NCBI GenBank assembly: GCA_950295325.1 | Contig: OX485804.1 | Coordinates: 34,534,001-34,598,000 of the forward strand | Reading direction: 5' to 3' | Origin: Polytrichum commune | Lineage: Eukaryota > Streptophyta > Polytrichopsida > Polytrichales > Polytrichaceae | Length of the DNA: 64,000 nt | Shown here: positions 4,998 to 60,748 of the stretch, one piece after another | Layout: each line of letters starts with the position of its first letter | How positions within the stretch are numbered: position 1 is the stretch's first letter | Notes under the pieces: model-generated | Databases searched by the model: none | What the model was told of the DNA's origin: nothing | What the model saw: only the letters and a program-made list of their open reading frames with translations | Position numbers and translations under genes: made by a program

Positions 4998-5926
4998 CCC
5001 TGCCCACACCTGCTGGTGGGGAGGCCAGTCGCAGGCTCCCACCAGCAAGGTGTCCCGTTTGGTACTCTTTTTGGCAGCAGCAGCGACTGGTTGCAATAGT
5101 CGCGCCTCTCGCCCGTTCGCTACTAATTCGTAACTTCACACATAATTTTTTTCGTACTATTAGCTGGTTGCGAAGTGTTACTATGTGGAATTACGCACAA
5201 CTTACTATATGGAATTACGCAATGCTATATTTATTTATTGTACATCTCATATTTTACCAACAAATGTTAAATTGATAGTTTAGGGTTTAAGGAAACATTG
5301 ACAACTTTACTTGGTAAAAGATCATGTGCATAGTAAGGATCTAGCACCGTGTAAATACAAATAATATGTCACACTAAATATCATATTTCACTAATTGTTC
5401 ACGGAGATATTTGGCAAGATCAGTTAAAATTCTATTCTTTCCAAGTCCGATTGGTTACATGTTTTGTGAACTTTCGGTTTTTTCTTTATTAATTTGAGGT
5501 ATATTCTCTATATTCCTCTAGAATGATTGATAGGTTTCATGAGGTCTAGTTCAACTGGTTCTTTCTCGAACTCAACCAATTCATCTTTTTAACTTCAAGT
5601 ACAAAAACCGAAAATGATGAATGTCCACTACTAATGCATAGAGTAGGATTAGAATGATGCTATTGTGGACCCTAAATGACTAATTGTAAAAGTTAACACC
5701 TAAAAAGGATGTAGTGATACGTCCTACAACCCTCGAGCCAGGTTGGTAATTCTCCTAACAGCTCGAACGCCAACCTCGTTATTTCTCAAACTCAACCAGT
5801 TCATATGCATCATTCACTAAGAGGTAACTATGTGGAAGTGTCTTCTGAAATAAAGCCCACACATACTGGTGGCAGTTAACGGAGTTCGCCCGTTCACTGC
5901 TGCCCACCACCAGTATGTGTGGGCAG
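4998..5926. mobile_element. 931-bp inverted-repeat element split by the retrotransposon
   Basis: The left end at 4998 reads CCCTGCCCACACCTGCTGG. The right end is divided: it runs to 5926 and resumes at 27668-27669 after the retrotransposon. Rejoined, it is a diverged inverted copy of the left end, and TA lies outside on both sides (4996-4997 and 27670-27671). Intact length is 931 bp. A second inverted pair near the right end (about 5855-5925) could fold into a stem. No transposase is encoded. TA flanks suggest a Tc1/mariner-like or similar origin, which is inference. Confidence 0.6.
5922..5926. repeat. Target site duplication, left (GGCAG)
   Basis: GGCAG directly precedes the 5' LTR and recurs at 27663-27667 directly after the 3' LTR. 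A 5-bp duplication is the usual size for LTR retrotransposon integration. Confidence 0.9.
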
Positions 5927-6666
5927 TGTAGGGTCACAGAACTCGCCATTGAAGCTGCAACAGGAGCAAAGGGAGGACTGAGATCTGAGGAGAAGGAGTA
6001 ATTCGACCAAACAGACAGCGAAAACAGGAGAGCAGTTGGAGCGACGAGACTGGAGGCCGGCGGACGCAAGGAGGTGACCGGGAGCCGAGCGAGGAGAGGA
6101 GCTGGTCGGACGTGCCACGTGGAGGGAGGAGCTGCCAGCCCGAGAGAAGGAGCCAGCTCGGCTTTGAGTGAGAAGGTGGAAACAGTAACTTTATACATGG
6201 GCCTCCAGCTAAGCTTAGCCATTAGTGAGAGAGATAGGCTATTAGTGAAAGGAAGGACTATTAGTAGAAGGGAGGCCACTAGTAGGTGAGGTGGCCGAGG
6301 GCATTATACTACTTAGTGGGACCGTGAGTAGGATTAGTAAGGGGTCGGGAGAGCATGAACCCGAAGGGCAGATGAAAGGACATCATGGATGACCAATTTT
6401 GGATGACTATAGCTAACCGTAAATGAATGAGGAAGAAACTTTAGGATGAATGGATGAAAGGGGTATAACTACCAATTGACACATCTAAGCGGATGAGACA
6501 TGCTCGTACGTACTTCTTGGGTAGATCTATTTTAAGCACGTGACAGTCTAATTATAGATCTGTCAGGGATGTATTTAGACTGAGAGGATATACAGGGCTA
6601 AAATTAGTAAATACAGACATTTAGAGGCTTAACCGCCACATCTTTAAATCCTTTGATTTCCAAGCC

Positions 6667-6675
6667 TATATAAAG
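6667..6675 (+). promoter_or_regulatory. TATA box of the 5' LTR promoter
   Basis: The sequence is TATATAAAG. It is directly followed by a 7-bp stem (GGGGCCA, loop CATA, TGGCCCC; 6675-6692), which would lie just upstream of or at the transcript start. The same site lies at 26187-26195 in the 3' LTR. Confidence 0.6.
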
Positions 6676-6819
6676 GGGCCACATATGGCCCCTAAAGCAC
6701 CTCATTATAAAGCGAACTATCTGAGGTGGAGGACGACGAGCTTGAAGACCTAAAGGATCAAACATATCCTAGCTCTCGAAGACTTAAAGGATCAAACATA
6801 TCCTCACGTTCGGAAACTT

Positions 6820-7047
6820 AAAGGATTGTAATCCTCGCATTTGAAGGCACAACGGGATTAGGGATTGAAATATTATCCCCGGAACTCAAAAACTTAAAGG
6901 ATTATAATCCTCGCATTTGAAGGCACAACGGGATTAGGGATTGAAATATTATCCCCGGAACTCAAAAACTTAAAGGATTATAATCCTCGCATTTGAAGGC
7001 ACAACGGGATTAGGGATTGAAATATTATCCCCGGAACTCAAAGGCTT
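6820..7047 (+). repeat. Three 76-bp tandem units in the 5' LTR
   Basis: Units start at 6820, 6896 and 6972. The first differs from the others at a few bases. A partial unit follows at 7048, and shorter related motifs (ACTTAAAGGATCAAACATAT) precede it. The array lies about 150 bp downstream of the TATA box. The 3' LTR carries the same array at 26340-26567. Confidence 0.85.
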
Positions 7048-8145
7048 AAAGGAATTGAAAATCCTTAGAAAGATTTCGGACTTGAAGAATAGATAATCAT
7101 AGTGTCTCTTCAACACGGAGAGGATCAAAAGATCCATATGTATTTAGGATTTTTGGAAATTCAATACTCGGAAGGACTTTGAAACATTGGTGAAACATGG
7201 AAATTATTTAGTTTGAAGGCCAATTTGGAAATAATCAAAGGATTAACATGAGGCAAGGCCGAAAGGGACATCTAAAGCCACTTGAGATTGATTAGGGATA
7301 GTTTGAGTTAAAGTGGTGAAGTAGAATCATGACTTAGAGAACGAGTTGGACGCGACGTGGAGAGTATCAACCACGGAATCATTTCAACTTGATGCATCGG
7401 AATGCGGCCGGCAAATTGGACCCCGTCAACATATCAACTCAAGTTTAGGATTTCAACTCGTTAAAAACTCTATCTCGAAGATTTAAAGAAAACTCTAAAA
7501 ATCATGAGGAATATTACTTGAATACGGAACAAACATTAGATGAAAGCACTTTATGAGAAATTATGTGGATACTAGAACTTGGATATGGAATGAAATCTTG
7601 AGATGAAACTTTAGTGAGGGAGTATGATTTGACTTTCAAAAGAGTTGTAACCTTTTCATAAATGCATGTTCTTGAATGGAATAAGAATCTTTTACGACCG
7701 TTCATACCATGAAAGATATTGTATGTATGAACGATGTTCTCCCTAAAACACTTAACCTTGACATTAGGGTTTCGGGGAATATAAACTTAAAGACTTGGAC
7801 ACTTTATCCTTAGAGATTTATAAAGGGCTCTTGATTAGAAAAAGGATTATGTTACTAAATCCATATAAGATGCGAAATCTAATAAAGGTTTAGGAACACC
7901 TAACCTTGACATTAGATTTCGGGGGACATAAACTTGAAAACTTAGGTCAATTTGTCCTTGAGGATTCAAAAGAGCATTAAGATTATGTATCACAAAATTA
8001 AGATTATATGAGTGCAAACACCTTCACCAGAAATGGGAAACCTAATGAAGGTCTAATTTTGGTGGGAGTAACTTCCATGTAAACCGGTCAGCAGCGGGTT
8101 ACACCGTCTAAGTTTGCTGAGGGTTTGAAGGTGACCTCGACATTT

Positions 8146-8163: not shown

Positions 8164-8257
8164 TTTCGCCACATGGGTGTTACACTCACCTAGAGTAGGA
8201 TATCTGAATTACAAACTACAAAATATTTTGGGAAAGTTGGATGGCAGGAAAACAGGA

Positions 8258-8869
8258 ATGGAGAACTTGTATTACCTATATAATGGGAGAAGCCAACGGG
8301 AGGCAAATGAACAACGAAAGTGGGCAGAAACATTTGGACCTCGGAAACAAGACCGTATAGAAAGGGCGGTACAGCGGAGACTTGAACAATTCAATTTACG
8401 CGGATTTATTGTGCAGGAAAATAGAGAAGGAGAAGAAGATAACTCTAAACAACAAGAAATCTCAATCCGAGGCAGGTGGCCATGGGATTATCCAAAGTAT
8501 AACACCGATAAAACAACCTTGAGAAAATGGGAAGGAACGAAGAAATTCCACGACTTGATGTGGGACATGCAAAAATACTACGAAGACAAAACATGGCAAT
8601 TGTTTAAAGAAAAGGAAATAGGTTTTACTTACCGGTCTCAATTTGAGAGAAACATTGAGGAATTACCGGAGGAACTACAGGCGTTAATCTATTCCAAGGT
8701 GTGGAATAACGGAGGTGAAGGTATTTATGCCCATGCCTTGGGAGCAACCAAGCATCGAGGATACCACTATAAACAGGAGGGGTTATTGTATGATCTCTAC
8801 GTTAGAAAAGTGTTTTTACCTTTGTATGGTGGACTGAACGGTAGGGTAGGAAACTTAGAACTGGAATAG
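8258..8869 (+). CDS. Upstream retrotransposon ORF1, unknown function
   Basis: The frame encodes about 203 residues from the first ATG at 8258; it is open further upstream to about 8177 but with no ATG. The protein is strongly charged (many K, R, E), has a repeated aromatic character (YYLYNG near its start) and contains no zinc knuckle, protease or polymerase motif. It lies between the primer-binding site and gag. That is where giant Ogre-type plant elements carry an extra ORF of unknown function, so a structural or regulatory role in the element is possible. I do not recognise its family. The 153 bases to the gag start contain no long frame. Confidence 0.6.
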   Translation: MENLYYLYNGRSQREANEQRKWAETFGPRKQDRIERAVQRRLEQFNLRGFIVQENREGEEDNSKQQEISIRGRWPWDYPKYNTDKTTLRKWEGTKKFHDLMWDMQKYYEDKTWQLFKEKEIGFTYRSQFERNIEELPEELQALIYSKVWNNGGEGIYAHALGATKHRGYHYKQEGLLYDLYVRKVFLPLYGGLNGRVGNLELE

Positions 8870-9022: not shown

Positions 9023-12000
9023 ATGGTTGATCATGAGGACACAACTAGTACAAGAAGTACATCACCAACCCCGAGAGAAAGGGAAGCCGAGAGGAAGCAT
9101 GTGGAGCGCATGCACTTCCAAGAAGACAGCGTGAAACGCACTGATCAACAAAAGAGAGAGAGAGAAGAAAGGTACGCGAGGCGTACGCGACCAAGGACTA
9201 AAGAAAAAGAAGACATTAGGAATGCTTCGGAACCACCAGTAATAGGTACCCATACCATCAAAACCAACCATCAAAGAAGTCAGAGTGAAGGAGGAAGTAG
9301 TAGCAAGACGTATAAAGAAGATGAAGAAACCACTAATGTACACTTGAATCAAGGAGAAAACGAGGAAGATGAGGATGATTTGATAATAGGTACCCCTCTT
9401 GGGACCTACGTATTGAGAACAAAAGGTACACGGGAAAATTCAGGTACGCACACCCCAGTAGAAGAGACACTTGAGAAAGGTAAAACTCATCGGAAGGATT
9501 CATCAAGAGAAGACCTTTTCAAACGAGAGAATTGGGAAGAGTTGAAAAGAAATTTTGAAATACAATTTAGTTACGAGGACTCCGGTTACTCCGGAGGAAG
9601 CACCCACAACAACAACACGGACCAAGAAGTGAAGAAACCTATTAGTCAAGAAGAATTTGACGAGCTAAGGAGAAAATTTGAAGAAAGGCTCAAGCAATTC
9701 CAAAGCTCTGGAAACAACGCCGGAGTCAGTCCACCACGAACAAATAGCAACAACTCAACCAGTATTGGAAACAACGCCGGAGTCAGCCCACCACCAGTAA
9801 ATAGCAACAACCCACTTGGTGTTGGGAACAATGCACCCAACGCGGCCAACATGGCAGCACCACAGAGAAGAACTAAGGTACCTTTACCAACTTATAAAGG
9901 TAAGACTGATCCTGATACATATATGCAGGAGTTCAACAACGTGTGTCTCGCAAACCAAGAAGACACAGACGCGATCAAATTGCAGTTATTTCCAGTCACC
10001 TTGAAGAAACGAGCACTGGAATGGTATTCCCAATTCGGCCCGAATCATTTCCCAGACTGGCCAACTTTGGGTACCGCTTTTCTTATGAGATTTAGAACCA
10101 AGAAATCAGAGGGAGAAGTGATTGAAAGTTTGGGATCCCTTAAACAAAAGAAGGATGAAACGGTTGAGGAATTTTATGAAAGAGTCATGGTAGAATCAGC
10201 AAAAATTCACCCTCAACCGAGTGACCATTTTAAGAAAGCATGGTTTTTGAACGGCCTCAAAAAGGAGTACGCCAAACACATCGATCTGATGCCAACGGAC
10301 GATTTGGAAGAGGCTAAGGCTTCCGCCCGGAAGTTAGAACTGGGCCGGATGAGGAAAGGAAGATCCCTCGACGACAGTGATAGTGATGAATCAAGTGAAG
10401 ATTCGGAGGAAGAACAGAGAAAGAAGAAACGGAAACCCAAAAGTAAGAGGAACGAGTCAACGAAAGATGATATCAAAACTCTTAGAGAAGAGATCGAAGG
10501 ATTGGCTTTAGGGAGCAGAAAATTTCGAGCGGGCATCATTTGTCGAAGATGCCGGAATGAAGGGCACTATGTTCAGGAGTGTCAAATGAAGCAGTGCACC
10601 AACTGCAACAGCCTAACACACAACACAAGCGAGTGTGTTTACGAAAGGCACGAATCTCGGAGACCCCGAGATAGGAGATATGGGGTAAACCAAGTACAAC
10701 CCCAAGCTAATCGGAGGCCAGGAGCGATAACTCCTAGGCGAGAAATGAATGAAAGAAGGGTTCGGTTTGAACCAAGGATAGAGTTCCGGAGAGATGAAAG
10801 ATCCCCCTTTAGGGAAAGCGATTACCGGCGGGAGGCGGGAGGCCCCTACCGGGGAAATGAATATCGCAGAGAGGAACGGCCATACTATAGGCCCAACAAC
10901 AACTACCGAGATGAGTTCAGAAGGGAAGGTTATTCCCCTTACAAAACCCAAGATTACCGGAGGGAAGATGGATACCCCTACCGAGGAGGCCCCAGAGGAC
11001 CTATTAACCATGACAGGTATGAGTATACCAGGAGCCTGATGGATAATAACAACACCAAGGCAGCACCGAGAACTGGGTTCACTGGCGAACCACAGCGAGA
11101 TGGCAACCCCGACGAGTGTTTCTATTGTCATCAGAAGGGGCACCGGAAACCGGATTGTCCGCACTTTATTAAACACCAACAGGAGTTGAGTGGGTTTAGA
11201 AACACAAAGCCGGCAGTAGGAGCCAACGTAGTGTCCCCTGCAGTTTGTGTGATGACCAGAGGCCAACGGGCCGCAGCTGAGAAAGGCAAAGAAGATAGTG
11301 AAAGTGATGACAGCGATGACGATGATAAATCAAGCAGTGGCAGCTCAGAAGAGCAAGAAGACCACCAAAAGAGGGAGGAGAACTCCGAAGATGAAAGGGA
11401 TGACGCGTTCGAGGATAATGAACGCAACAAAGTGATTGAAGAAAGGCCGATAGGAGCCAACAGTGAAGAATGGAAAGCGAATAGGGAAGTCCACCGGGAG
11501 GTGAGTAAGACTATCCATGAAATACAAGAGGAAGAGGGCGAAGCTCTACCCACGCCAGAAGAGTTCGCACCTTGGTACCCAGAAAAAGAAGAGGCAGAGA
11601 AGCCCGTGAAACGGAGCCCCGAGAAGGGAGGCGTCCCAACAACTACCCGGGCAAGGGTAGATAAAATTTTAGAGAGTGTGATGAATCACACAAAAGCAAA
11701 CATCTCAATAGGGCAGCTGCTAGAGATAGCCCCCTATTGCAAGAAACGGGTAATGGCGGCCCTTACCAGCCAAGAGGAGGAAACGGAGAAACCGACCTCT
11801 ACATATCACGTAACAGCAAAGGCGTTCGACGAAGAAATGCCCATGATATCAGTGATCGTTAAGAACAGAAGAGTTCCAAATGTTTTAATCGATGGTGGCT
11901 CAGGAGTGAACATCATCACTAATACCTTAAGAAAGAAACTAGGGCTTGACAAAATAGAGCCCGCCCCATTTACCATCAAGATGGCCGACCAAAGGAAGGT

Positions 12001-13417
12001 CATGCCTAAAGGAATCATCCGGGATGTACGCCTCGATGTCGGCGGAATCGTAATCCGGACAACACTCACCGTCATAGACATGGTGAGCACTGAAGATAGT
12101 TACTCTCTGTTATTAGGGAGACCATGGTTAAAGGAGGCCCAAACACAACATGATTGGCCCCTTAACAAATTGACCTTGACTCAAGGAGGAAGCAAGGTAG
12201 AATTGAGTACTCAAAGAACCCCGGCACTACCACCGGGTAAGAGACCCTTAAATTGGGAAGACTACGACTGGGAGATGGGACTATCGGATGAAGAGGAGGC
12301 AATAGTCTATGAGGCATTTCCCGAGTTGCTACCTATGGGAGACTTTGATTTGAAAAGTTTGAGGAAACTGCACGGATCAAGCTGTAATACAGTGGGGGTT
12401 GATAACCCTAAGAAACCGGGAAGGCCTAGAGAAAACCCCGGCGAACAAGAGAAACCTCGACCTCGTAAAGCTACCAAGAAGGAGCAAGAGGCCATGGAAG
12501 AGAAACCCGTATATCCGGACCAATTCTACAAAGTTAAAGAAGGGGATATAACGGTGGACGTTACTCCTGCCGCGGAGGCAGTGAAAGGAAAGAAGATAGC
12601 GGGATGGACCGTAGAAGATGAAGACCTAGTCAAAAATTTGAACCTAGGAACCCTTGAAGATCCTAAATTGGTGAAAATTTCCAAGGACTTGGGAGAATAC
12701 GAAGCTAAAGTGAAAGATCTTTTGCTTCGTTTTAAAGATGTGTTCGCATTTACCTATAAGGACATGAAAGGGATACCCCCGTATGTTTGTGAACACAAGA
12801 TTGAATTACAACCGGAAGCCAAGCCGGTGCGGCAAATGCGGTACAGAATGAACCCCAATTACGCCGCCAAAGTGAAGGAGGAAATTGATAAGTACTTGGA
12901 AGCCGGGTTCATATACCCCGTCGACAAAACGGAATGGCTATCACCGATCGTGATTGTGCCAAAGAAGAATGGGAAACTACGAGTGTGCGTTGACTACCGC
13001 AAACTCAACGCAGTCACCAAGGTAGACCCTTTTCCTCTACCTTTTACCGAATCAATTTTGGAAGCTGTTGCAGGACACGAGATGTACACGTTAATGGACG
13101 GGTATAGTGGTTACAACCAAATCATGATCGCTCTGGAGGATCAATTGAAGACATCTTTTATTACCGAGTATGGAGCTTTCGCGTACCGAGTAATGCCCTT
13201 TGGTTTGATGTGTGCCCCAGCCACATTCCAAAGGGGAATGATGAAAATATTTGCAGACTACCTTGATAAGTTTATGAAGGTTTTCCTAGATGATTTTACA
13301 GTATATGGAACCAAGGAGGACCATATCGAACATCTAGAGAAATGTCTGATCAAGTGCCGAGAAAATGGAGTAAGCCTAAATCCGGAGAAATGTTTTTTTC
13401 TGTGTAAATTCGGGAAG
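9023..13417 (+). CDS. Gag-protease-reverse transcriptase (5' part of polyprotein)
   Basis: This is the first part of the gag-pol polyprotein. ATG at 9023 opens a highly charged N-terminal region. A retrotransposon gag domain follows (about 9870-10300). Three CCHC zinc knuckles of the C-x2-C-x4-H-x4-C form lie at 10541-10582, 10595-10636 and 11117-11158, separated by an Arg/Tyr-rich segment. The aspartic protease has the active-site motif LIDGGSGVNII (Asp codon 11891). Reverse transcriptase runs from about 12820 and includes YTLMDGYSGYNQI, MPFGL and the catalytic FLDD (Asp codons 13289 and 13292). The correct reading breaks at about 13418. There one extra base moves the homologous sequence into the next frame; the original frame stays open without homology to 13582. 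An acidic Ser/Asp/Glu stretch (about 11290-11420) lies between gag and protease. Confidence 0.9.
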
Positions 13418-13418
13418 G

Positions 13419-15356
13419 CTCCTTGGACATGTGGTTTGCCAAGAAGGCTTGTTGGTGGACCCCAAAAAGGTGGACGTAATAGGAAAGTTACCTCCACCAA
13501 CCACAGTACGGGGAATTCGGAGCTTCTTAGGACAAGCCACATATCACCGGAAATTCATTTGGATGTACGCGGAAATCACTAGACCTCTGTACTTACTTTT
13601 GAAGAAAGGGGAAAAATACATTTGGACAAAATCCTGTCAAGAGGCGTTTGAGGAGGTGAAGAAGAGACTCACAACAACGCCTATACTAATAACCCCCAAT
13701 TGGGCTATGGAGTTTCACGTACATTGTGATGCCTCCAATATAGCCATTGGTGCGGTTTTGGCTCAAAACACCCACGGAGATAGAGATTCTCCAATATACT
13801 ATGCCAGCAGACTTCTAAACAACGCCGAGAGAAATTACAGCACCACCGAGCGAGAAGCTTTGGCGATGATTTATTCAGTCGGTAAGTTTAGACATTATCT
13901 TCTAGCTAACCATGTGGTTTTCTATGTAGACCACCAAGCTTTACTGTATCTAGTCAACCGACCAGTGGTATCTGGCCGAATTGCTAGATGGATGTTACTA
14001 CTTCAAGAATATGACTTTGAAGTAGTCTACAAACCTGGGAGAAACCATGTAATGGCCGACCACCTATCAAGGATAGAAAGCGGAGAAGATCCCTCAGGAG
14101 TACAAGACCAGTTTCCGGACGCCAGCCTCTTTATGGTGCACGTGCAACCTTTCGAAGATTGGCGAGCACCTTTTATTGAATACCTTACCCATGGAAGATT
14201 ATTGTCAGCTCTAACCACCTCACAAGAGCAGGACAAGATCAAACAACTAAGTGAACCATTCGTTTTGAACAACGAAACACTCAAACGGGTAAGCATCACT
14301 GGCAAAATACAGGAGTGTATCGCTGGCGACATCGTTGAAGAGATAATAGGGGAAGCCCATGAACATGAAGGAACACATGTTAATTACAATACCACGTGGC
14401 AAAATATTCTGCGCACACCTTATTGGTGGCCTACAAGGAGGAAGGATGTCTTGGCATATTGCCAAGAATGTCCGATATGTAATATGGTAAACAAAGGTGA
14501 GATACACGACGCAATCTCACCGGCCGATATTGAAGACCCTGATAACGTGCTACCAATTGAGCCTTTGGAAGCCGGAGAAAACTTGGCAGATGGTACTGAT
14601 CCCGATTGGACAACCCCATATGTCCAATATTTGACCCATGGAACCAAATGGGAAGACGACCTACCTTACGAGGAACAACAACTGATAGCTCATCGCAGTC
14701 AATTTTACATACTAAAGGAAGGGGAATTACATCGCATCTTCCAAAACAACGTTGTCAAAAGATGTATGCCTGGAAAGTACGTGAAAAACTACATAAAGGC
14801 TTTCCATATACGTGAAAATCGGCATTACTCATTCGACGCCACCCTGCAACTCATCTTACGAGAGCCATATTGGTGGCCCACCATAGCAGAGGATCTCTCG
14901 TTGTTCATAACCTTGTGTACAGGTTGTCGTGGAAAAGGGGACGAGTTGGCCCCAAAGGAAGGATCCCACGAACCTACTACCTCAGAAGGCGCCGTACCCT
15001 ATGAAGAGACCCTCAACGATTGGAGAACACCAATAATCGAGTATCTGACCCAGGGAGAAATCAAGGTAGGGACACTTACGCGAAGGGAATACAAAGAGAT
15101 CATACGAAGAAGCGAGTTTTTCACGATGGACAAAGGAAAACTCAGGAGATTAGAGAGGAATGGGAAAACCAAAGAATGCATTGCGGGACCTCAAATCAAG
15201 CAATGGATAGAGAAAATGCATACTTACCAACAAAAACATTTGACCGCTGATCAAACTTGGTTTCGGATCTCAAAGGGAAATCGATGGTGGCCTACCATGG
15301 GGATCTACGACGTACAAAATTTTATCAAATACGATTGCCCGACATGTCGGGAATAA
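13419..15356 (+). CDS. RT thumb, RNase H and zinc modules 1-3 (polyprotein continued)
   Basis: This continues the reverse transcriptase one frame over (LLGHVV is the first homologous stretch) and runs to a TAA at 15354-15356. A Ty3-type RNase H follows the RT. Its acidic residues are visible as HCDASN (Asp codon 13728), TEREAL (13848) and YVDHQ (13929), and it ends in MADHLSRI. Three integrase-type zinc-binding modules follow (DWR or DWT to final Cys: 14157-14480, 14604-14927, 15018-15347), each with H-x5-H, a WWPT motif and a C-x2-C pair. The stop directly follows module 3. The same frame continues beyond it with module 4, so this is one polyprotein interrupted by a single stop codon rather than a separate gene. 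Confidence 0.85.
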   Translation, partial: LLGHVVCQEGLLVDPKKVDVIGKLPPPTTVRGIRSFLGQATYHRKFIWMYAEITRPLYLLLKKGEKYIWTKSCQEAFEEVKKRLTTTPILITPNWAMEFHVHCDASNIAIGAVLAQNTHGDRDSPIYYASRLLNNAERNYSTTEREALAMIYSVGKFRHYLLANHVVFYVDHQALLYLVNRPVVSGRIARWMLLLQEYDFEVVYKPGRNHVMADHLSRIESGEDPSGVQDQFPDASLFMVHVQPFEDWRAPFIEYLTHGRLLSALTTSQEQDKIKQLSEPFVLNNETLKRVSITGKIQECIAGDIVEEIIGEAHEHEGTHVNYNTTWQNILRTPYWWPTRRKDVLAYCQECPICNMVNKGEIHDAISPADIEDPDNVLPIEPLEAGENLADGTDPDWTTPYVQYLTHGTKWEDDLPYEEQQLIAHRSQFYILKEGELHRIFQNNVVKRCMPGKYVKNYIKAFHIRENRHYSFDATLQLILREPYWWPTIAEDLSLFITLCTGCRGKGDELAPKEGSHEPTTSEGAVPYEETLNDWRTPIIEYLTQGEIKVGTLTRREYKEIIRRSEFFTMDKGKLRRLERNGKTKECIAGPQIKQWIEKMHTYQQKHLTADQTWFRISKGNRWWPTMGIYDVQNFIKYDCPTCRE

Positions 15357-16604
15357 TTTCACAACTTAGCAAGCTTATTCATGGTACATGTGCAACCGTT
15401 TGAGGACTGGCGAGCACCTTTTATCGAGTACCTGACTCACGGGAAGTTGTTATCCGTTCTAGCTACCCCTAAGGAACAGACTAAAATCTGGCAATTGAAT
15501 GAACCATTCGTTTTGGACGAGGAGAAGTTCATGCGGGTCAGTATCTCCGGCAAAATACAGGAATGCGTAGCCGGGGACATCATCGAAGAGATTATAGGTG
15601 AAGCTCATGAACAAGACGGAGTGCATTACAATCTGTCTACTACATGGCACTATATATTATGCACACCTTATTGGTGGCCCACACGGCGAAGGGACGTACT
15701 GGAGTATTGTGATGAATGCCCAGTATGTAAGTGTGCAGACAAAGGTGACGTGACTGGGGACATTACCCCACACGACTCCGAAGAAGACGACGATCCACTT
15801 CCTGTCAAACCTTTGGAGGCACAAGAGGATATGACAGGGAAAGCGGAACCAGATTGGACAACACCATATGTCCAATATCTAACATGTCAAACGTACGGTA
15901 CACCATGGGTGAATTCCCTACCCCTAGAGGAAAGGAGATTGATTGCTTACCGCAGTCGATTCTTCATACTTAAAGAAGGAGAATTACATCGGATGTTTCA
16001 CAACGGCATCATAAAGAAATGTATACCGGGAAGGTATGTGAGGAGTTACCTCAAGACCCTCCATATAAAGGAAAATCGGCATTTCTCGGAAAACGCCACC
16101 AGGCAACTGGCGCTACAAGGTCCTTATTGGTGGCCAACCATCGCGGAAGATGTGTCGCTACTCATCACGCTATGCACTGAATGCGAAGGGCAGGGAGAAG
16201 AGTTACCAATGGAGGGAAGCTCTACCCAACCTAGTAATGAAACGGATATGATACCTTACAAAGAAACCTTCTACGATTGGAGAACCCCCATGGTTGAATA
16301 CCTGGCACGTGGGAAATTCAAAATGGACGCAGAAACTCAAAGACGGCAAAGAGAGCTCCTACGGGATAGCGAGTTCTTCGCTTTAGAGAAAGGAAAACTC
16401 CGGAAATTGGAGAAAAACGGAATGGCCAAGATTTGCATTGGAGGTTACCAGATAAAGCATTATATCGGGAAAATGCATGTCTATCGAAAAGCACATCTGA
16501 ACGATCAATACACCTGGCTACGATGTTTACAAGGGAACCGGTGGTGGCCCACGATGGGGCTAAGTGATGTACAATTATACATTGAGTATGATTGTCGAGG
16601 CTGT
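14133..16604 (+). repeat. Duplicated block of three zinc modules (1-3 and 4-6)
   Basis: Modules 1, 2 and 3 are closest to 4, 5 and 6 respectively, at offsets of 1248, 1248 and 1257 bases. Both blocks start with the same short leader, ending MVHVQPFEDWR (14133 and 15381). The array therefore grew at least once by duplication of a three-module unit after the single modules had already diverged. Confidence 0.85.
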
Positions 16605-18593
16605 CGAGAGCGATTTATAGGCCCATACCATAACATAGTTTGCGGGTCCATTGTCGTACAACCACACGACACCAAGGATTGGAGGAGGTTATTGATAGAA
16701 TACCTCACCTACGGATACCTTAAAGGACCCCGTATTTCAAAGAATCAATACAAAAGGATAACTCAACAAAGCCAGGAGTATTTCATCGAAGAGGGGAAAC
16801 TAAAAAGGATATTCCCGGACGGAAACATTAAGATATGCATTGCCGGACGCGAGATTGACGAACACTTGAAGAGCTTACACGTAACCGATACAGGAGAGCA
16901 TCTCAGCATAGGGTTAATGTGGCACCTAGTCACGTTTGGACCCTACTGGTGGCCCACGTGCGGAGCCGACATTAAAAACTTATGCAATCATAAATGTTTG
17001 ACCTGCAGCAACCAACCGGAGTTCTCAAAAGGCGAGCAAAACCAATCACGCCTAGGCAGGAAGGAATTACAAGGAACACCTACCACGGATTGGAGACGCC
17101 CTTATATGGAATACCTCACATGCGAAAGGGTCTTTACCCAAAACTTAACACCAGAAGATAAAAGGGCTGTGGAACACAACCATAAATATTTTGTGTTCCT
17201 CGAGGGTACTTTACAAAGAATACGTAAAGGAGGAAAGAGTAACCAACTTTGCATTCCGGAGACACGAGTACCCATGTACTTAGGTAGGATTCACGGGGGA
17301 ACCAAACCTCATTTAGCCGCCATGGAAACATGGAAGGCCGTGGCCACAGGAGAATACTGGTGGCCAACATGGGGAGTTGATGTGTGCAACCATCTAAGAG
17401 ATTGCAAAACTTGCAAAGGAATGGCAACGCAACCAGCGGAGAATCAAAACTCGGTTGCGCAAGAATCAACACATGAGCCAGATTGGAGGCTCTTGATTAT
17501 ACGACAACTAAATAGCATCGAGAAACTAAACCATATTAACACCCAAGAGGAATTGGGGTTAACCAGTTTCGACACGGAGACTTATTTCACCACCGAAGAT
17601 GGTCTGAAATACCGATTACCAAATGGAGAAGTAAAAATGTGCATCACTAAGGATGATGCCATTGATTGGGTGAAAAGAATATATCAATATCAGATACCTC
17701 CTCTTACAAAAGAGGAGACACTTACAGAAGTACACGAAGGCCCCTATTGGTGGCCAAATATCCCTCAGGACGTGGAACATATACTCGAAGAATGTCAAAG
17801 GTATCGGGATATCCTATTACCAGGCCCCAAAATCGAGAACTATGGGACCATCCTACAAACTAAGAATACTCAGGATTGGAGGGAACCAATCGTCCAATAT
17901 CTCAAGAACCCCATGGAGTTAAGCAACTTTGCTTTTCACGAAGAATTGGGTGTATTACGTGAGGAACTACCTTACTATTCTTTACAAAATGGGGAATTGA
18001 AACGGAGATTCGCGAACGGCGAAATTAAACTGTGCGTTTCCAAAGAAAAGGGGGGGGAATGGTTAACCACCATCCACCAACAAGGAACTCCACATCTCTC
18101 AATGGACGAGATGATCTCGCAAGTCACCACAGAACCTTATTGGTGGCCCACAATTCCCCCTGATATTGATAATTTATGCAGGAACTGTAAGATTTGTTGG
18201 CCTACTCGATCGGAGGGACGGATGATCGAGTGCACCACGATCACAGCAAAAGAGGAAAACGAACAAGACTGGAGAGCCCCCTACATTGATTACTTAAAAC
18301 ATGGTCGTTTGACCACGGAAGCGTCAACTACACAACGGCAACAGATAGCAATACGTAGCCGACCTTTCATGTTAAACCAAAATGGGACACTAATCAAAGA
18401 AGGTCCAGACGGCATACGAAGAACATGCGTAGCCGGACCAGTGACAACAGCTATCATTGCAGAAGCCCACGAGGGTATCGCGGGAGGACATTTCTCAGCT
18501 AACATCACCCTCCACAAGATTTTGACCGCTTTGTATTGGTGGCCCACCATTAAACGGGATGTGCATTTGTATTGTACCCAATGTGATATATGC
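14157..18593 (+). repeat. Eleven tandem integrase HHCC zinc-binding modules
   Basis: Starts of the DW(R/T) motif are 14157, 14604, 15018, 15405, 15852, 16275, 16677, 17088, 17481, 17874 and 18267, so the spacing is 387-447 bp. Each module has DW(R/T)xPxxxYL or a close variant, a hydrophobic middle with a Cys (CIAG-like), His-x5/6-His, (Y/R)WWP(T/N), and C-x2-C. This is the linker plus N-terminal zinc domain that normally occurs once between RNase H and the integrase core. Ten modules retain all four zinc ligands. Module 9 (17481-17804) has lost both His and the second Cys but keeps WWP. Only module 11 adjoins the catalytic core. Confidence 0.9.
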
Positions 18594-20063
18594 CAAAGGG
18601 TTGGCCCTAAAATATCTACAAGTCTCCAACCCTTACATCCTACAATGCCTACTGAGGTATTTCAAAAATGGGGCTTAGATTTTATCGGCCCAGTCAACCC
18701 ACCAGCTAGAGGCACCAAAAATCGATACATCATCACGGCCACTGACTACACCACCAAATGGGTGGAGGCCAAAGCGTTAAAAGATAACACGGCCAAGTCA
18801 ACGGCTAAGTTTCTTTTTGAAGAAATAATCATGAAATTTGGATGCCCTTTGGAGTTCGTGAGCGACCAAGGGAGTCATTTTATTAATGACACTATCAAAA
18901 TACTTACCCAAGAATTCATGATTTTACATCGGAAATCAACGACTTACTACCCACAGGCGAATGGGCAAGCTGAAAGTACTAACAAGGTGATAAAAGTTGC
19001 CTTGACCAAAATGGTGAATGCCAATCGAACAGATTGGGATACCAAGTTACATGCAGCGCTTTGGGCCTATAGGACAGCCTATAAGGTTACCACAAAGCAC
19101 ACTCCATTTTCATTAGTTTTTGGTACGGAAGCCTTGTTGCCTATGGCTTACCTTCACCCTGATGTGTACCAAGAACGGAGCCAAGAAATTCATCCCATTC
19201 TCGAAAAGAGAATGGAACAACTCAGAGTTATGGATTTGACCCGACACGAAGCAGAAGAGAACATGAGACACATGCAAACCTTACGCAAAGAGAGACATGA
19301 CCATCCTAAATCAAAGACACGTTGTCACCAATGTAAACAGGAAGCAACCAAGCCACCACGAAATAAGGCTAAGGAATCCACAATCGTGAAGAAAGAATTG
19401 GAGCAAGGGACTACACTCAAACCACGATTTTACCCCGGCCAACGAATCTTGTGGCATTTACGCCATAAAATACCCGGGCCCGGCAAATTCAAAATACGAT
19501 GGGCAGGACCATACGTGATTAAACAACTCTATGACAACGGATCGGTGGACGTCACCACTTTACAAGGAGAAGAGTTGGGCCGAGTTAACATGAACAAACT
19601 CAAACCTTATCAAGAACCGGAGACTCCTCAAGCTTATGCTTTACAAATTCTAGCATGCCATCTGTTGGAAGCAGAAATTAAGGCAAAGAAATCCCAAACT
19701 CAAAACAAGGATATTTCAAAGCCTCTATTGAACCCCTCTAACCAAGGAACGACCTCACATACCAAACCTCCACCATACCCGGATCAGGCTACTCTGGATG
19801 AAGAAGACTTGGAGATACATCGCATCATGTTAGAAGGTTATTACGCGCAACCCACAAAGTTATGGGAGCAAGGTGTAACACGACCACGCGACCATAGGAC
19901 CAACGGCACTCAGTCAACCGACGAATTGGTCAAACCACAAGGAACAAGTGTATTTACGCCACCTAAGGCCACCTTGGATGGAGAAGTACAAAGGGATGCG
20001 AACCATGCCTATGAAGACCCTACCCATGTGAAAGAGGGTAGGGAGGTGCATCCCCTCGAATAA
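15357..20063 (+). CDS. Zinc modules 4-11, integrase core and C-terminal tail
   Basis: It is in the same frame as the preceding part, after one TAA; the first ATG is at 15381. Eight further zinc-binding modules follow: 15405-15728, 15852-16184, 16275-16604, 16677-17006, 17088-17414, 17481-17804, 17874-18197 and 18267-18593. Only the last is joined to an integrase catalytic core. That core has Asp at 18678 (LDFIGP), Asp at 18864 (SDQGSHF) and Glu at 18972 (GQAEST), giving the exact D-x35-E spacing. Integrase inserts the element's cDNA in the nucleus. The C-terminal part contains the usual GRVNMNKLKPY region and then a low-complexity tail. No chromodomain is visible. The frame is uninterrupted over 1560 codons, which suggests selection until recently. 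Confidence 0.9.
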   Translation, partial: FHNLASLFMVHVQPFEDWRAPFIEYLTHGKLLSVLATPKEQTKIWQLNEPFVLDEEKFMRVSISGKIQECVAGDIIEEIIGEAHEQDGVHYNLSTTWHYILCTPYWWPTRRRDVLEYCDECPVCKCADKGDVTGDITPHDSEEDDDPLPVKPLEAQEDMTGKAEPDWTTPYVQYLTCQTYGTPWVNSLPLEERRLIAYRSRFFILKEGELHRMFHNGIIKKCIPGRYVRSYLKTLHIKENRHFSENATRQLALQGPYWWPTIAEDVSLLITLCTECEGQGEELPMEGSSTQPSNETDMIPYKETFYDWRTPMVEYLARGKFKMDAETQRRQRELLRDSEFFALEKGKLRKLEKNGMAKICIGGYQIKHYIGKMHVYRKAHLNDQYTWLRCLQGNRWWPTMGLSDVQLYIEYDCRGCRERFIGPYHNIVCGSIVVQPHDTKDWRRLLIEYLTYGYLKGPRISKNQYKRITQQSQEYFIEEGKLKRIFPDGNIKICIAGREIDEHLKSLHVTDTGEHLSIGLMWHLVTFGPYWWPTCGADIKNLCNHKCLTCSNQPEFSKGEQNQSRLGRKELQGTPTTDWRRPYMEYLTCERVFTQNLTPEDKRAVEHNHKYFVFLEGTLQRIRKGGKSNQLCIPETRVPMYLGRIHGGTKPHLAAMETWKAVATGEYWWPTWGVDVCNHLRDCKTCKGMATQPAENQNSVAQESTHEPDWRLLIIRQLNSIEKLNHINTQEELGLTSFDTETYFTTEDGLKYRLPNGEVKMCITKDDAIDWVKRIYQYQIPPLTKEETLTEVHEGPYWWPNIPQDVEHILEECQRYRDILLPGPKIENYGTILQTKNTQDWREPIVQYLKNPMELSNFAFHEELGVLREELPYYSLQNGELKRRFANGEIKLCVSKEKGGEWLTTIHQQGTPHLSMDEMISQVTTEPYWWPTIPPDIDNLCRNCKICWPTRSEGRMIECTTITAKEENEQDWRAPYIDYLKHGRLTTEASTTQRQQIAIRSRPFMLNQNGTLIKEGPDGIRRTCVAGPVTTAIIAEAHEGIAGGHFSANITLHKILTALYWWPTIKRDVHLYCTQCDICQRVGPKISTSLQPLHPTMPTEVFQKWGLDFIGPVNPPARGTKNRYIITATDYTTKWVEAKALKDNTAKSTAKFLFEEIIMKFGCPLEFVSDQGSHFINDTIKILTQEFMILHRKSTTYYPQANGQAESTNKVIKVALTKMVNANRTDWDTKLHAALWAYRTAYKVTTKHTPFSLVFGTEALLPMAYLHPDVYQERSQEIHPILEKRMEQLRVMDLTRHEAEENMRHMQTLRKERHDHPKSKTRCHQCKQEATKPPRNKAKESTIVKKELEQGTTLKPRFYPGQRILWHLRHKIPGPGKFKIRWAGPYVIKQLYDNGSVDVTTLQGEELGRVNMNKLKPYQEPETPQAYALQILACHLLEAEIKAKKSQTQNKDISKPLLNPSNQGTTSHTKPPPYPDQATLDEEDLEIHRIMLEGYYAQPTKLWEQGVTRPRDHRTNGTQSTDELVKPQGTSVFTPPKATLDGEVQRDANHAYEDPTHVKEGREVHPLE

Positions 20064-22612: not shown

Positions 22613-23551
22613 ATGAGCACAAAGTCCAGCTCGGCAGCAAGATCAAGAACCCGCAAACTTAGGGTTGAAAGCTCGGGGACTGTCCGAAGACACTCTCTTT
22701 CAGCTGACGCTAAAACGGTTGCAGCAGTTGCCTCGCCGTCCTTAGCAACGGTCTCCGAGCTAACAGAAATTCCCGTAGCAATGGCTCTTAACTCTGGAGT
22801 GTCCACAAGGAAGCAGGTTTCAAAACCAAGAGAGGCTTTGAGTTTGATCGAATCAAGCGCACTTAAAGCTTTTGCCTCAGTCAGATTCAGCACAGAGGAC
22901 GCAGAGTTGTACCCACCGTTGTGCAAACAACACCTTTGGCAACAAATATTGCGACTGGCTGTTGCAAAAGCAGCCAACCTTATACAGGATTCTCCCACCT
23001 TCAAGTTGATGCACGGAGTGGTACCATATACACCAATGGAGTCATTTGCCTTTCACATGGATGCAGCTTACAAGAGCACCCAATTCAGCAAGGAAGAGCT
23101 GACCTTCTTGCGCAAGCTGCGGTTGGAGCAGTTCCTGTGCAATGTTCCATGGGGAGTAGTACATCCAGCCAGGGCAGTGGAAGCCATCAACACATTGCAA
23201 GAAGACACATTGCAGGTCACTCTAAAAGGTGAAGTGCTACCCTTATTTTCTGAAAATTGGAGAGACCTGTTCTTCAAGATTTTTCACTTAACACCGAAAG
23301 GAGTGGGTGAAGGAGAGAAATTACAACTGCATGAATTGTTTCCCTCTCTCGAGACCATCCAAGAAGGACAGAGCTCAGTAAAGGTAGGAGATTGTCAAGC
23401 TGCTGGATCAAGAAGACCTTTGAGGCTTCTCAGCTTTTTTTTTCTGCCTCAACACCTCCAGCCAATACAGTGTGACCATCCACTTCGCGAAACTAGTGCT
23501 GGCAGCATTAAATGGGGAAAAGGTGGATTGGCCTTTAGAGTTTTTCGATGA
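22613..23551 (+). CDS. 3' accessory ORF of the retrotransposon, part 1
   Basis: ATG at 22613 opens a protein with a Ser/Ala/Thr-rich start and then a compact, well-ordered region (about residues 80-260) containing many Trp, Phe and Leu, such as FAFHMDAAYKSTQF and LCNVPWGVVHPARAVEAI. I do not recognise the family, and no transmembrane segment or envelope-like signal is visible. The sensible reading appears to leave this frame near 23390, pass through another (TFEASQL, about 23416-23436) and enter the frame of part 2 at a run of nine T (23435-23443). The last 50 or so codons of this frame are therefore probably not coding. It is the first of three pieces of one long protein encoded between integrase and the 3' LTR. 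Confidence 0.6.
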   Translation: MSTKSSSAARSRTRKLRVESSGTVRRHSLSADAKTVAAVASPSLATVSELTEIPVAMALNSGVSTRKQVSKPREALSLIESSALKAFASVRFSTEDAELYPPLCKQHLWQQILRLAVAKAANLIQDSPTFKLMHGVVPYTPMESFAFHMDAAYKSTQFSKEELTFLRKLRLEQFLCNVPWGVVHPARAVEAINTLQEDTLQVTLKGEVLPLFSENWRDLFFKIFHLTPKGVGEGEKLQLHELFPSLETIQEGQSSVKVGDCQAAGSRRPLRLLSFFFLPQHLQPIQCDHPLRETSAGSIKWGKGGLAFRVFR

Positions 23552-24230
23552 GTTCAAAGCAGAGGTGATCACTCTGCATCGACATCAGCAGGAGGACAAG
23601 GCCAAAGTCATCAGAACTGTCATTGGACCTCATCTAACCTTGCTTATTGATGAGGCCAATTTCTTAGGCAGCCAGGAGAGGAAGACAGCAGGGTTCGGTA
23701 CCGCTGCAGGGCTGACCATGTCAGAGAGAACACCACCACCCCGGAAGAGGAAGCTAGCGGAGGCCTCAGGAAGCGGAAAATTGCACACAGTTGTCCGGGT
23801 TACCCCACACCCATCCAAGCTATCCAGCCCCAACACCCTATCAGACCAGGCCGCAGATACTGGAAGAGAGCTTCCCAAAAGACGAGTGATCCAGACAGCG
23901 GAGAAGTGGAAGGTGCCAGATGATACCTCCATAATGGTAAACCAGATTTGCTTCACCCATCGCAGGTTAGAGCAATTACTGACCACATTCACCAAGAAAG
24001 CTGGATCAGAGTTTATCAAAACCATGGACAACGAATTCCAGAAAATCACACAGGAAGCTACTCACCAATTCAATCAGGGGTTGAAAGGGAAGGAGGCCCT
24101 AACTGAAAATGAGCATGCAGTAGAGAAAGGTTTATTACATATAGAAATCAGGAAGCTTACCAAAGAGCTTACCACCCTCAATGAGGGATATGCGGAACAA
24201 ATTGAAATGGTTTTTGAACTTCAGGACTAG
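23444..24230 (+). CDS. 3' accessory ORF, part 2 (basic linker and coiled coil)
   Basis: The frame continues the accessory protein with VTIHFAKLVLAALNGEKVDW (first possible start 23472). It then has a basic Pro/Lys/Arg segment resembling a nuclear localisation signal (PPPRKRKLA, about 23740), a second basic patch (PKRRVI) and a helical, heptad-like region rich in Glu, Lys, Leu and Gln to 24230. A TAG at 24228-24230 ends it, but the same frame continues beyond. The codon sits inside the coiled coil, where Gln would be expected (CAG to TAG is one transition). The function is unknown. A coiled coil plus nuclear signal suggests a DNA- or protein-bridging role, which is inference. Confidence 0.6.
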
Positions 24231-25403
24231 TTAACCACCGCAGAAACAACATTGGCCACTCTTACAGACGCTCACCGAACTCAACAAATCAAATTTGACC
24301 AGGTGACCGAAGACTTAGCCAAGCAAAATCACAAATCGGCAGTTACAGAAGCAGAGTTAGAAACTACCCAGCAGCGACTGACGGCGTTGCAGGTTGAACA
24401 TGACGAACATACCACCACCTTGGTATCCCTGGAGGAAGAGCTTCGTCAATGTCTCAAGACTTCTTTCAATACCACCAGCCCAGTTACACCCAGATCAGCT
24501 GATACAACACCACAGGCGAGTGATAGCATGATGCACACGGGCACCTCAGGACTTTACTCAATGATAGAAGAGATGAGGGACCCAGCCGAGTTCCAGCAAC
24601 GCTCGATCGCGGAACTACAGCAGGAACTCCAATACATCACAAGGGAGCGGGATGAATTGAAGTTAACCATTGAAAGAACCATGGAGGGTCCTCTGGTCCT
24701 AAGCGAAGAACCACTCAACTCGGCAGAGATCCCGAGGTCGGCTGCATCACCAAAGGACATAATCTACAAGCAGTTTACCACAAACATTCCACCTCTTACC
24801 ACTGTGATGCAGTATTACCACGCCCTAAAGGGGCTCCATCTGCTGATGGCCCAGGTACCAATTCTCAAGGCAGGGGTCACCTTATCAAAACCCCAGTTTG
24901 AGCAAATCTGGGCAATGGCTGATGCCACAGCAAGGGACACCCTCGCGTTCATGTGGGTCAAGAGTGAGTTCAGATTACCCATAGGGGTTATGGAAGTGGT
25001 AGTTGGATCCCCGCCCTTCTATGTGGGCCGGTTTGTGCTGCGTGCACTCAGTTTTATCAGCCACCACCATTCTACTTACTACAACCACACCCCCCTGAAC
25101 AGGTTACCAACATTGAAACCATATCCACACAGCATTTTCAATCAGGTCAGAGATTCGGTGAGAAATCAGCACATCACATTCAACCAGGCCCTCAAGACCC
25201 TCACCACGGAGGATACTACAATTTGCTACGAGGCCGTGCAGCAATTCACGTGGCTCAGAGAGCGCCACCCCCACCGATTACCAGGCCCGTACACAATTCC
25301 ACAGATTAAGGACTATGTGACCAGGGTGATCAAGGAGAAGGCGATATCCACACGCAGGTTCGGCACCCCAAACTCCCGAACTATCCTTCAACCAGAGCAG
25401 TAA
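24231..25403 (+). CDS. 3' accessory ORF, part 3 (coiled coil and C-terminal domain)
   Basis: It is in frame with part 2 after one TAG; the first ATG-less start is near 24252. The coiled coil continues (about 24250-24460), followed by a Ser/Thr-rich linker, a second helical region (about 24560-24690) and a folded-looking C-terminal domain (about 24750-25400) with LLMAQVPILKAGVTLSKPQF and FYVGRFVLRALSFISHHHS. It stops at 25401-25403, 27 bases before the polypurine tract. No catalytic motif is recognised. The length of the rejoined protein (about 900 residues) is far above typical retrotransposon accessory ORFs. Confidence 0.6.
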   Translation, partial: LTTAETTLATLTDAHRTQQIKFDQVTEDLAKQNHKSAVTEAELETTQQRLTALQVEHDEHTTTLVSLEEELRQCLKTSFNTTSPVTPRSADTTPQASDSMMHTGTSGLYSMIEEMRDPAEFQQRSIAELQQELQYITRERDELKLTIERTMEGPLVLSEEPLNSAEIPRSAASPKDIIYKQFTTNIPPLTTVMQYYHALKGLHLLMAQVPILKAGVTLSKPQFEQIWAMADATARDTLAFMWVKSEFRLPIGVMEVVVGSPPFYVGRFVLRALSFISHHHSTYYNHTPLNRLPTLKPYPHSIFNQVRDSVRNQHITFNQALKTLTTEDTTICYEAVQQFTWLRERHPHRLPGPYTIPQIKDYVTRVIKEKAISTRRFGTPNSRTILQPEQ

Positions 25404-25446: not shown

Positions 25447-27662
25447 TGTAGGGTCACAGAACTCGCCATTGAAGCTGCAACAGGAGCAAAGGGAGGACTG
25501 AGATCTGAGGAGAAGGAGTAATTCGACCAAACAGACAGCGAAAACAGGAGAGCAGTTGGAGCGACGAGACTGGAGGCCGGCGGACGCAAGGAGGTGACCG
25601 GGAGCCGAGCGAGGAGAGGAGCTGGTCGGACGTGCCACGTGGAGGGAGGAGCTGCCAGCCCGAGAGAAGGAGCCAGCTCGGCTTTGAGTGAGAAGGTGGA
25701 AACAGTAACTTTATACATGGGCCTCCAGCTAAGCTTAGCCATTAGTGAGAGAGATAGGCTATTAGTGAAAGGAAGGACTATTAGTAGAAGGGAGGCCACT
25801 AGTAGGTGAGGTGGCCGAGGGCATTATACTACTTAGTGGGACCGTGAGTAGGATTAGTAAGGGGTCGGGAGAGCATGAACCCGAAGGGCAGATGAAAGGA
25901 CATCATGGATGACCAATTTTGGATGACTATAGCTAACCGTAAATGAATGAGGAAGAAACTTTAGGATGAATGGATGAAAGGGGTATAACTACCAATTGAC
26001 ACATCTAAGCGGATGAGACATGCTCGTACGTACTTCTTGGGTAGATCTATTTTAAGCACGTGACAGTCTAATTATAGATCTGTCAGGGATGTATTTAGAC
26101 TGAGAGGATATACAGGGCTAAAATTAGTAAATACAGACATTTAGAGGCTTAACCGCCACATCTTTAAATCCTTTGATTTCCAAGCCTATATAAAGGGGCC
26201 ACATATGGCCCCTAAAGCACCTCATTATAAAGCGAACTATCTGAGGTGGAGGACGACGAGCTTGAAGACCTAAAGGATCAAACATATCCTAGCTCTCGAA
26301 GACTTAAAGGATCAAACATATCCTCACGTTCGGAAACTTAAAGGATTGTAATCCTCGCATTTGAAGGCACAACGGGATTAGGGATTGAAATATTATCCCC
26401 GGAACTCAAAAACTTAAAGGATTATAATCCTCGCATTTGAAGGCACAACGGGATTAGGGATTGAAATATTATCCCCGGAACTCAAAAACTTAAAGGATTA
26501 TAATCCTCGCATTTGAAGGCACAACGGGATTAGGGATTGAAATATTATCCCCGGAACTCAAAGGCTTAAAGGAATTGAAAATCCTTAGAAAGATTTCGGA
26601 CTTGAAGAATAGATAATCATAGTGTCTCTTCAACACGGAGAGGATCAAAAGATCCATATGTATTTAGGATTTTTGGAAATTCAATACTCGGAAGGACTTT
26701 GAAACATTGGTGAAACATGGAAATTATTTAGTTTGAAGGCCAATTTGGAAATAATCAAAGGATTAACATGAGGCAAGGCCGAAAGGGACATCTAAAGCCA
26801 CTTGAGATTGATTAGGGATAGTTTGAGTTAAAGTGGTGAAGTAGAATCATGACTTAGAGAACGAGTTGGACGCGACGTGGAGAGTATCAACCACGGAATC
26901 ATTTCAACTTGATGCATCGGAATGCGGCCGGCAAATTGGACCCCGTCAACATATCAACTCAAGTTTAGGATTTCAACTCGTTAAAAACTCTATCTCGAAG
27001 ATTTAAAGAAAACTCTAAAAATCATGAGGAATATTACTTGAATACGGAACAAACATTAGATGAAAGCACTTTATGAGAAATTATGTGGATACTAGAACTT
27101 GGATATGGAATGAAATCTTGAGATGAAACTTTAGTGAGGGAGTATGATTTGACTTTCAAAAGAGTTGTAACCTTTTCATAAATGCATGTTCTTGAATGGA
27201 ATAAGAATCTTTTACGACCGTTCATACCATGAAAGATATTGTATGTATGAACGATGTTCTCCCTAAAACACTTAACCTTGACATTAGGGTTTCGGGGAAT
27301 ATAAACTTAAAGACTTGGACACTTTATCCTTAGAGATTTATAAAGGGCTCTTGATTAGAAAAAGGATTATGTTACTAAATCCATATAAGATGCGAAATCT
27401 AATAAAGGTTTAGGAACACCTAACCTTGACATTAGATTTCGGGGGACATAAACTTGAAAACTTAGGTCAATTTGTCCTTGAGGATTCAAAAGAGCATTAA
27501 GATTATGTATCACAAAATTAAGATTATATGAGTGCAAACACCTTCACCAGAAATGGGAAACCTAATGAAGGTCTAATTTTGGTGGGAGTAACTTCCATGT
27601 AAACCGGTCAGCAGCGGGTTACACCGTCTAAGTTTGCTGAGGGTTTGAAGGTGACCTCGACA
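25447..27662 (+). repeat. 3' long terminal repeat (2216 bp)
   Basis: Same length as the 5' LTR and apparently identical to it. It carries the TATA element at 26187-26195 and the three 76-bp units at 26340-26567. GGCAG at 27663-27667 is the right target duplication. Confidence 0.95.
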
Positions 27663-27667
27663 GGCAG
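27663..27667. repeat. Target site duplication, right (GGCAG)
   Basis: It matches 5922-5926. The two bases after it (27668-27669) complete the interrupted 931-bp element, and TA follows. Confidence 0.9.
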
Positions 27668-60514: not shown

Positions 60515-60748
60515 CACACTTGCGTTGAATCATTCCATAGTATGAAAGCACAAGGATTTATGAAGGACTTTGATGAATTTTTAATTTATTATCATATCAT
60601 GTGTTCAAGTTATGATTTTTCATAGGTAATGTTTCTAAATAAATTATATGAAGTTCATGAAGGAATTTGCACCTTATAGCCACCACATTCGTAGAGTTTA
60701 GAATACATCTCCAACAACTTTGTAGAAGAACAAGATATCTTTTGAAAC

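Follow-up and report, generated by a model that had tools for sequence, protein, structure and literature searches.

Eleven tandem integrase N-terminal units in a Ty3/gypsy-type retrotransposon of the moss Polytrichum commune

The window analyzed here, a stretch of 64,000 nucleotides from the moss Polytrichum commune (GenBank assembly GCA_950295325.1, contig OX485804.1, positions 34,534,001 to 34,598,000, forward strand), harbors a Ty3/gypsy-type long terminal repeat (LTR) retrotransposon in which the N-terminal extension domain (NED) and the zinc-binding HHCC N-terminal domain (NTD) of the integrase are tandemly multiplied between the RNase H and the catalytic core. Eleven diverged copies of this unit of about 110 amino acids, denoted M1 to M11, are found on the forward strand of the window, M1 to M10 being delineated by alignment and all but M6 also matched, some weakly, by Pfam: M1 at 14157–14525, M2 at 14604–14972, M3 at 15018–15353, M4 at 15405–15773, M5 at 15852–16229, M6 at 16275–16643, M7 at 16677–17048, M8 at 17088–17459, M9 at 17481–17849, M10 at 17874–18242 and M11 at 18267–18593. 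The last of these adjoins the catalytic core and is the integrase's own NED-NTD. Every unit opens with D-W. An earlier note on this DNA had counted eleven units at a spacing of 387–447 bp, all of them with W-W-P and ten with the ligand set H-H-C-C; coordinates and alignment bear out each of these numbers, the exception being M9, which has Y-P-C-Y at the ligand positions in the window copy.

Outside of a block duplication the modules are only 19–43% identical to each other. The block M1-M3 is a duplicate of M4-M6: in a blastn comparison of the window with itself, 14121–14500 matches 15369–15748 at 73%, and the duplicated tract, with homology starting at 14121 and 15369, extends over 14121–16616 on the forward strand, its end being derived from the offset of 1248 bp. 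Amino acid identities of the pairs M1/M4, M2/M5 and M3/M6 are 67, 66 and 55%, respectively. The same pairings are recovered with support values of 0.82, 1.00 and 0.97 in a tree of the modules of 18 copies and of 69, 100 and 100 in a tree rooted on the single-module family described below.

The repeating unit is the whole N-terminus of the integrase rather than the zinc finger alone, and the former description as a linker plus an HHCC finger has to be given up. A profile built from the eleven modules matches residues 30–107 of prototype foamy virus (PFV) integrase with E-values of 4.4e-07 to 4.5e-07, and the structure model of M7 aligns over its full length with residues 10–114 of PFV integrase as well as with the N-terminus of Ty3 integrase; a NED and a three-helix NTD fold are both present in this predicted structure. 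Scanned module by module with the Pfam family Integrase_H2C2 (curated cut-off 25.5 bits), M1, M2, M4, M5, M10 and M11 pass, the latter with 47.7 bits, M8 (25.4 bits), M7 (24.3 bits), M9 (18.5 bits) and M3 (16.1 bits) stay below the cut-off, and M6 gives no match when scanned alone. Nine of the eleven match at E ≤ 0.01. Pfam by itself thus understates the module identity of the array: six modules pass its cut-off, the diverged modules match the NED-NTD by profile and one of them does so by model, which disposes of the concern that M11 might be the only HHCC domain present.

Further copies were sought by blastn with the array in the P. commune genome (408 Mb in 64 contigs), where 40 of 89 candidate places were scored and 30 gave loci (L009 to L038); modules were counted with a custom module hidden Markov model on both strands, rows split by frame shifts being counted once. 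The array recurs at these loci, with eleven modules at eight of them (L009, which is the window copy, L010 to L013, L015, L016 and L017) and with eight modules at 19, the missing ones being M1-M3; the arrays at L025, L035 and L036 are incomplete. It is free of stops and in one frame at three loci with eleven modules (L011, L013, L016) and five with eight (L018, L019, L022, L026, L031). At the other 22 loci, the window copy included, stops, frame shifts or missing parts lie within the array, the defects of the remaining copies being at positions other than those of the window copy. The open frames around the integrase core comprise 3652 codons in L011, 3716 in L016 and 3264 in both L018 and L019. 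The eleven-module copy L011 has a target duplication of its own, CCGAA, as opposed to GGCAG in the window, and eleven-module elements therefore inserted separately. In addition, 14 records from other sources (ena, jgi) hold pieces of the array that are 63–95% identical to the genome copies by best-scoring match, one of them (P0003) comprising only half a module; six peptide patterns derived from the array found no match in IMG/VR. The copies L010 and L012 (contig C3, 27 kb apart) are near-identical and share the same stop in M2, and L018 and L019 (contig C5, 17 kb apart) are near-identical as well; both pairs perhaps reflect local duplication instead of separate insertions, so that the locus counts are not all independent.

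The single polyprotein of the earlier note is not one open frame in the window copy: the reading frame changes between the reverse transcriptase and the RNase H, and an in-frame stop at 15354–15356, which follows M3, splits M1-M3 from M4-M11. This stop is absent from the other copies compared.

Ratios of nonsynonymous to synonymous substitution (dN/dS) were calculated according to Nei and Gojobori and pooled over pairs of copies without stops in the array, namely six copies for the values per module and per column class, seven for the spacer and ligand-column tests and three for M1-M3; many dS values exceed 1 and the ratios are therefore rough. They amount to 0.117 (M1), 0.092 (M2), 0.182 (M3), 0.098 (M4), 0.168 (M5), 0.097 (M6), 0.124 (M7), 0.155 (M8), 0.194 (M9), 0.125 (M10) and 0.045 (M11), with 0.023 for the RNase H region and 0.058 for the integrase core as references. 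Far below 1 in every module, and not near 1 as would have refuted the earlier note, these values show purifying selection on each module between copies. The spacers evolve about three times faster than the modules (0.345 versus 0.12–0.14, seven copies).

Zinc ligands are especially well preserved. Among seven copies, the ligand columns of M1-M8 and M10 contain 0 amino-acid differences in 540, as compared to 20% in the other NTD columns, and when four NTD columns were drawn at random 20,000 times, the fraction of draws equalling this conservation was 0.0000. For M11 the draw test yields 0.38 and is uninformative, and in M9 the ligand columns are more variable than the remaining NTD columns. Ligands were tabulated for 18 of the 30 loci, 12 with frame shifts or missing modules being dropped. 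All four are kept in 7/7 copies for each of M1, M2 and M3, in 18/18 for each of M4, M5, M10 and M11, in 16/18 for M6 and M7, in 17/18 for M8 and in 8/18 for M9, where they are lost in L009 to L014 and L018 to L021 and kept in L016, L017, L022, L026, L028, L031, L032 and L033. The third module of the five-module sister family described below (F3) is devoid of the second histidine and both cysteines in all four loci read. Selection on the zinc ligands, in line with the earlier note, is thus supported for M1-M8 and M10, but it does not extend to M9 and F3.

The constraint is not confined to positions shared by all modules. Columns in which paralogous modules agree in less than 10% of comparisons still show an orthologue dN/dS of 0.244, while those with the greatest paralogue agreement, the fold and zinc positions, are the most conserved (0.022). 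The mean net charge differs by position, with −7.1 in M9, −6.7 in M4, +6.9 in M6 and +7.9 in M3, and its sign is constant among copies at every position but M10. The accessory modules have diverged from each other, and each remains under purifying selection in its particular array position. Along the array dS jumps within the same pair of copies, from about 0.1 in M8-M11 to 1.3 in M6 for L016/L022 and from 0.04 in M4 to 0.97 in M10 for L011/L013, which indicates recombination between copies involving L013, L016, L011 and L022.

A search of the genome with the integrase core gave 133 matches, 130 of 2791 candidates being scored, and among the matches scored three tiers of core identity are found: 82–100% in the element's own family, 69–72% in a sister family and 46–52% in a single-module family. 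The sister family contains five modules, denoted F1 to F5, at five loci. Four of its arrays are in one frame, with no stop in L059, one each in L039 and L040 and two in L058; the fifth, L044, has frame shifts and is 80% identical over a partial core. The two loci of the single-module family (L041, L042) have open reading frames (ORFs) of up to 2018 amino acids and the same domain order as the window element, with one module each, an identity of 51% in the RNase H region and of 48–49% in the integrase core; these single-module relatives constitute a separate family and are not copies of the same element. Other integrase-bearing elements, L001 to L008, likewise have one module each within 3.1 kb (8 of 150 scored matches, some perhaps belonging to one family). 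L045, with a core identity of 78% and two modules, has no RNase H within about 12 kb, is therefore incomplete and was left uncounted, and L043 and L046 gave no module matches.

With the single-module family as the root of the module tree, F1 of the sister family clusters with M4 and M1 (100), as does M9 with M10 (100); closest to the root are M11, F5 and the M11-like module found in L045. The placement of F3 near M5/M8 (66) and of F4 near M9/M10 (68) is weak, and F2 is weakly placed or unresolved. In the 18-copy tree nine of the eleven module positions are each monophyletic across the copies. M1 is an exception, since with midpoint rooting the M4 clade falls within it, and so is M5, within which M2 falls. 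A tree of the blocks, likewise with midpoint rooting, places the M1-M3 block outside all M4-M6 blocks. Judging from these trees the array is old relative to its copies, and the differences in array size between families fit a stepwise growth over 1, 5, 8 and 11 modules. Over M4-M11, L014 shares 98% identity with the window copy although it carries only eight modules; gain or loss of the M1-M3 block was therefore recent in at least one lineage.

As to function, our preferred reading, held tentatively and with slightly less than an even chance, is that the accessory modules form a multivalent N-terminal arm attached to the integrase or acting with it. The modules would remain joined to the integrase, or work together with it, and would present a number of contact surfaces in cis that are not equivalent, the basic modules M3, M5, M6, M8 and M11 possibly facing cDNA or target DNA and the acidic modules M1, M4, M9 and M10 packing on other modules or on host proteins. 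Such an arm could aid assembly of the integrase-cDNA complex, tether it at chromosomal targets, or both, and would multiply NED-type contacts with each position specialized. According to PMC8632968 the Ty3 NED stabilizes the LTR contact and is reported to interact with the host targeting factor TFIIIC, and PMC3738965 calls the PFV NED essential for complexing viral DNA. A bolder version, which we consider doubtful, would have a modular recognition arm of up to eleven diverged domains with individual specificities for DNA stretches or host partners. This arm would read addresses multivalently or provide a built-in scaffold in place of the extra integrase subunits of ordinary intasomes, its length being set by block duplication and loss. 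Several observations weigh against an arm. PMC3738965 also states that the NED contributes nothing to the in vitro activity of PFV integrase; a confident structure model was obtained for only one of the eleven modules (M7), that of the M8-M11 block being of low quality (mean pLDDT 46.5, pTM 0.35); the ligand losses in M9 (10/18 copies) and F3 mean that some modules can do without zinc; M1-M3 are dispensable over short times, given L014; complete ends are resolved for two insertions only (window and L011); and the modules may be released by the protease.

This last alternative, which we hold to be unlikely, supposes that the element's protease cuts the spacers and so liberates zinc proteins of about 13–15 kDa with separate tasks, such as coating of RNA or cDNA and binding of chromatin or host factors. 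Constrained modules between fast-evolving spacers are what beads on loose strings would look like, and the modules are unlike in charge and retain position-specific residues, but fast spacers also suit flexible linkers, and inspection by eye revealed no recurrent motif in the spacers viewed. It is also rather unlikely, in our estimate, that the array serves no function in itself and persists since in-frame duplication is easy, reversal is hard and misfolding of any module would harm the adjoining enzymes. Variation of array size between families and between near-identical copies is in line with such a ratchet, as are the concentration of conservation on fold and ligand positions shared by paralogues, the persistence of M9 and F3 after loss of their ligands and the faster evolution of accessory modules compared to M11. 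Pure fold constraint, however, is not expected to restrain the columns in which the modules can differ freely, nor to render the mean charge position-specific, and no complete array of the own family has fewer than eight modules among the 30 loci (three being incomplete). An assembly artefact or a dead one-off rearrangement, to which the in-frame stop and frame break of the window copy might point, is refuted by the presence of 8 or 11 modules at 27/30 loci, by the different target duplications of two eleven-module insertions and by the array parts in the 14 records from other sources, and we assign it practically no weight. The arm attached to or acting with the integrase remains the reading we favor.

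The element carrying the array occupies 5927–27662 (21.7 kb). Its 5′ LTR (5927–8142) and 3′ LTR (25447–27662), both on the forward strand and 2216 bp long, are base for base 100% identical, and the 5-bp target-site duplication GGCAG is found directly outside either LTR, at 5922–5926 and 27663–27667; by these features the element is a young LTR retrotransposon. Ends were also sought in five other copies, and both were resolved in L011 only: in L010 and L012 stretches inside the LTR were matched, in L013 only the 3′ LTR end, in two places, and L014 gave no LTR match. Three ORFs on the forward strand encode the proteins. The first (9023–13582, 1519 amino acids, frame lost near its 3′ end) contains gag, protease and reverse transcriptase (RT), with Retrotrans_gag and RVT_1 above and the protease and zinc-knuckle families below the Pfam cut-off. 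The second (13431–15356), which in the window copy overlaps the first in a different frame, contains the RNase H and M1-M3, and the third (15381–20063, 1560 amino acids) M4-M11, the catalytic core (Pfam rve, 18651–18953) and the C-terminus. With two LTRs, a target-site duplication and the order gag-protease-RT-RNase H-integrase, the element is a Ty3/gypsy LTR retrotransposon (Metaviridae).

Tat elements (Ogre/Retand and kin) are characterized by an extra archaeal-type RNase H in the polyprotein, as stated in PMC6317226, and chromoviruses by a chromodomain at the C-terminus of the integrase. No chromodomain is listed by Pfam for the ORF 15381–20063, although most matches above E 0.1 are dropped by HMMER filters. 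Neither the three pol ORFs nor those downstream have a second RNase H family listed, so that by the features given in that source the element is neither a chromovirus nor Tat in the ORFs scanned. Phygy, a moss non-chromovirus clade, is described there as rather short with a preference for NCGN insertion sites; the window element measures 21.7 kb, and its two resolved sites are GGCAG and CCGAA. It may belong to Athila, to Phygy or to a clade yet without a name.

With the integrases of PFV and Ty3 the array shares the NED and HHCC NTD in the same ligand order, but these have one unit per integrase (general knowledge and PMC8632968), as opposed to 5, 8 or 11 in tandem here. The rule of one HHCC module voiced in the earlier note has exceptions: in the five angiosperm polyproteins described here out of a set of 18 proteins (P0004 and P0017 of Sesbania, P0020 and P0024 of Camellia, P0026 of Fagus) two tandem NED-HHCC-like units precede the integrase core, and the first of them is partly degenerate. 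M11 together with the core is 33–37% identical to P0017, P0020, P0024 and P0026 (28% to P0004, module only) and 24–29% to other families of the P. commune genome. The angiosperm elements contain a second RNase H (PF13456), which the window element lacks, and a tree separates their duplication from the moss array (100); the two duplications are thus independent. The angiosperm elements are the closest architecture found. Titles and abstract openings of the literature searched, with most subscription papers outside this search, yielded no description of tandem integrase zinc or N-terminal domains, in keeping with the initial impression of an undescribed architecture. Tandem C2H2 zinc-finger proteins also carry many diverged zinc modules per chain, a likeness in outline only: their fingers have an unrelated fold and about 30 amino acids, compared to about 110 here, where the modules sit inside a retroelement polyprotein. 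The usual view of retroviral and LTR-element integrases is that they have one N-terminal zinc domain, complexity arising from multimers. Here one lineage has multiplied this domain in cis, with the steps (1, 5, 8, 11) readable in one genome and the copies kept distinct by selection, which provides a natural series for asking how domain arrays originate in mobile elements and what the NED-NTD contributes to target choice and to the assembly of intasomes.

ARAGORN predicts no tRNA gene in the window, so that nothing at this single site hints at targeting of the Ty3 kind. An ORF of 230 amino acids (8177–8869) that lies between the 5′ LTR and gag is without Pfam match, and three ORFs (312, 252 and 383 amino acids; 22613–25403) between pol and the 3′ LTR have none above the cut-off. 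Both LTRs contain 76-bp tandem repeats (6814–7065 and 26334–26585), and in this stretch the LTRs of L010 and L012 seem to differ from those of the window. Downstream of the element, an inverted repeat at 30523–31831, with arms of about 525 bp that are 88% alike and 262 bp apart, possibly represents a foldback element, and a 68-bp tandem repeat array with units 96–99% alike is located at 59970–60527.

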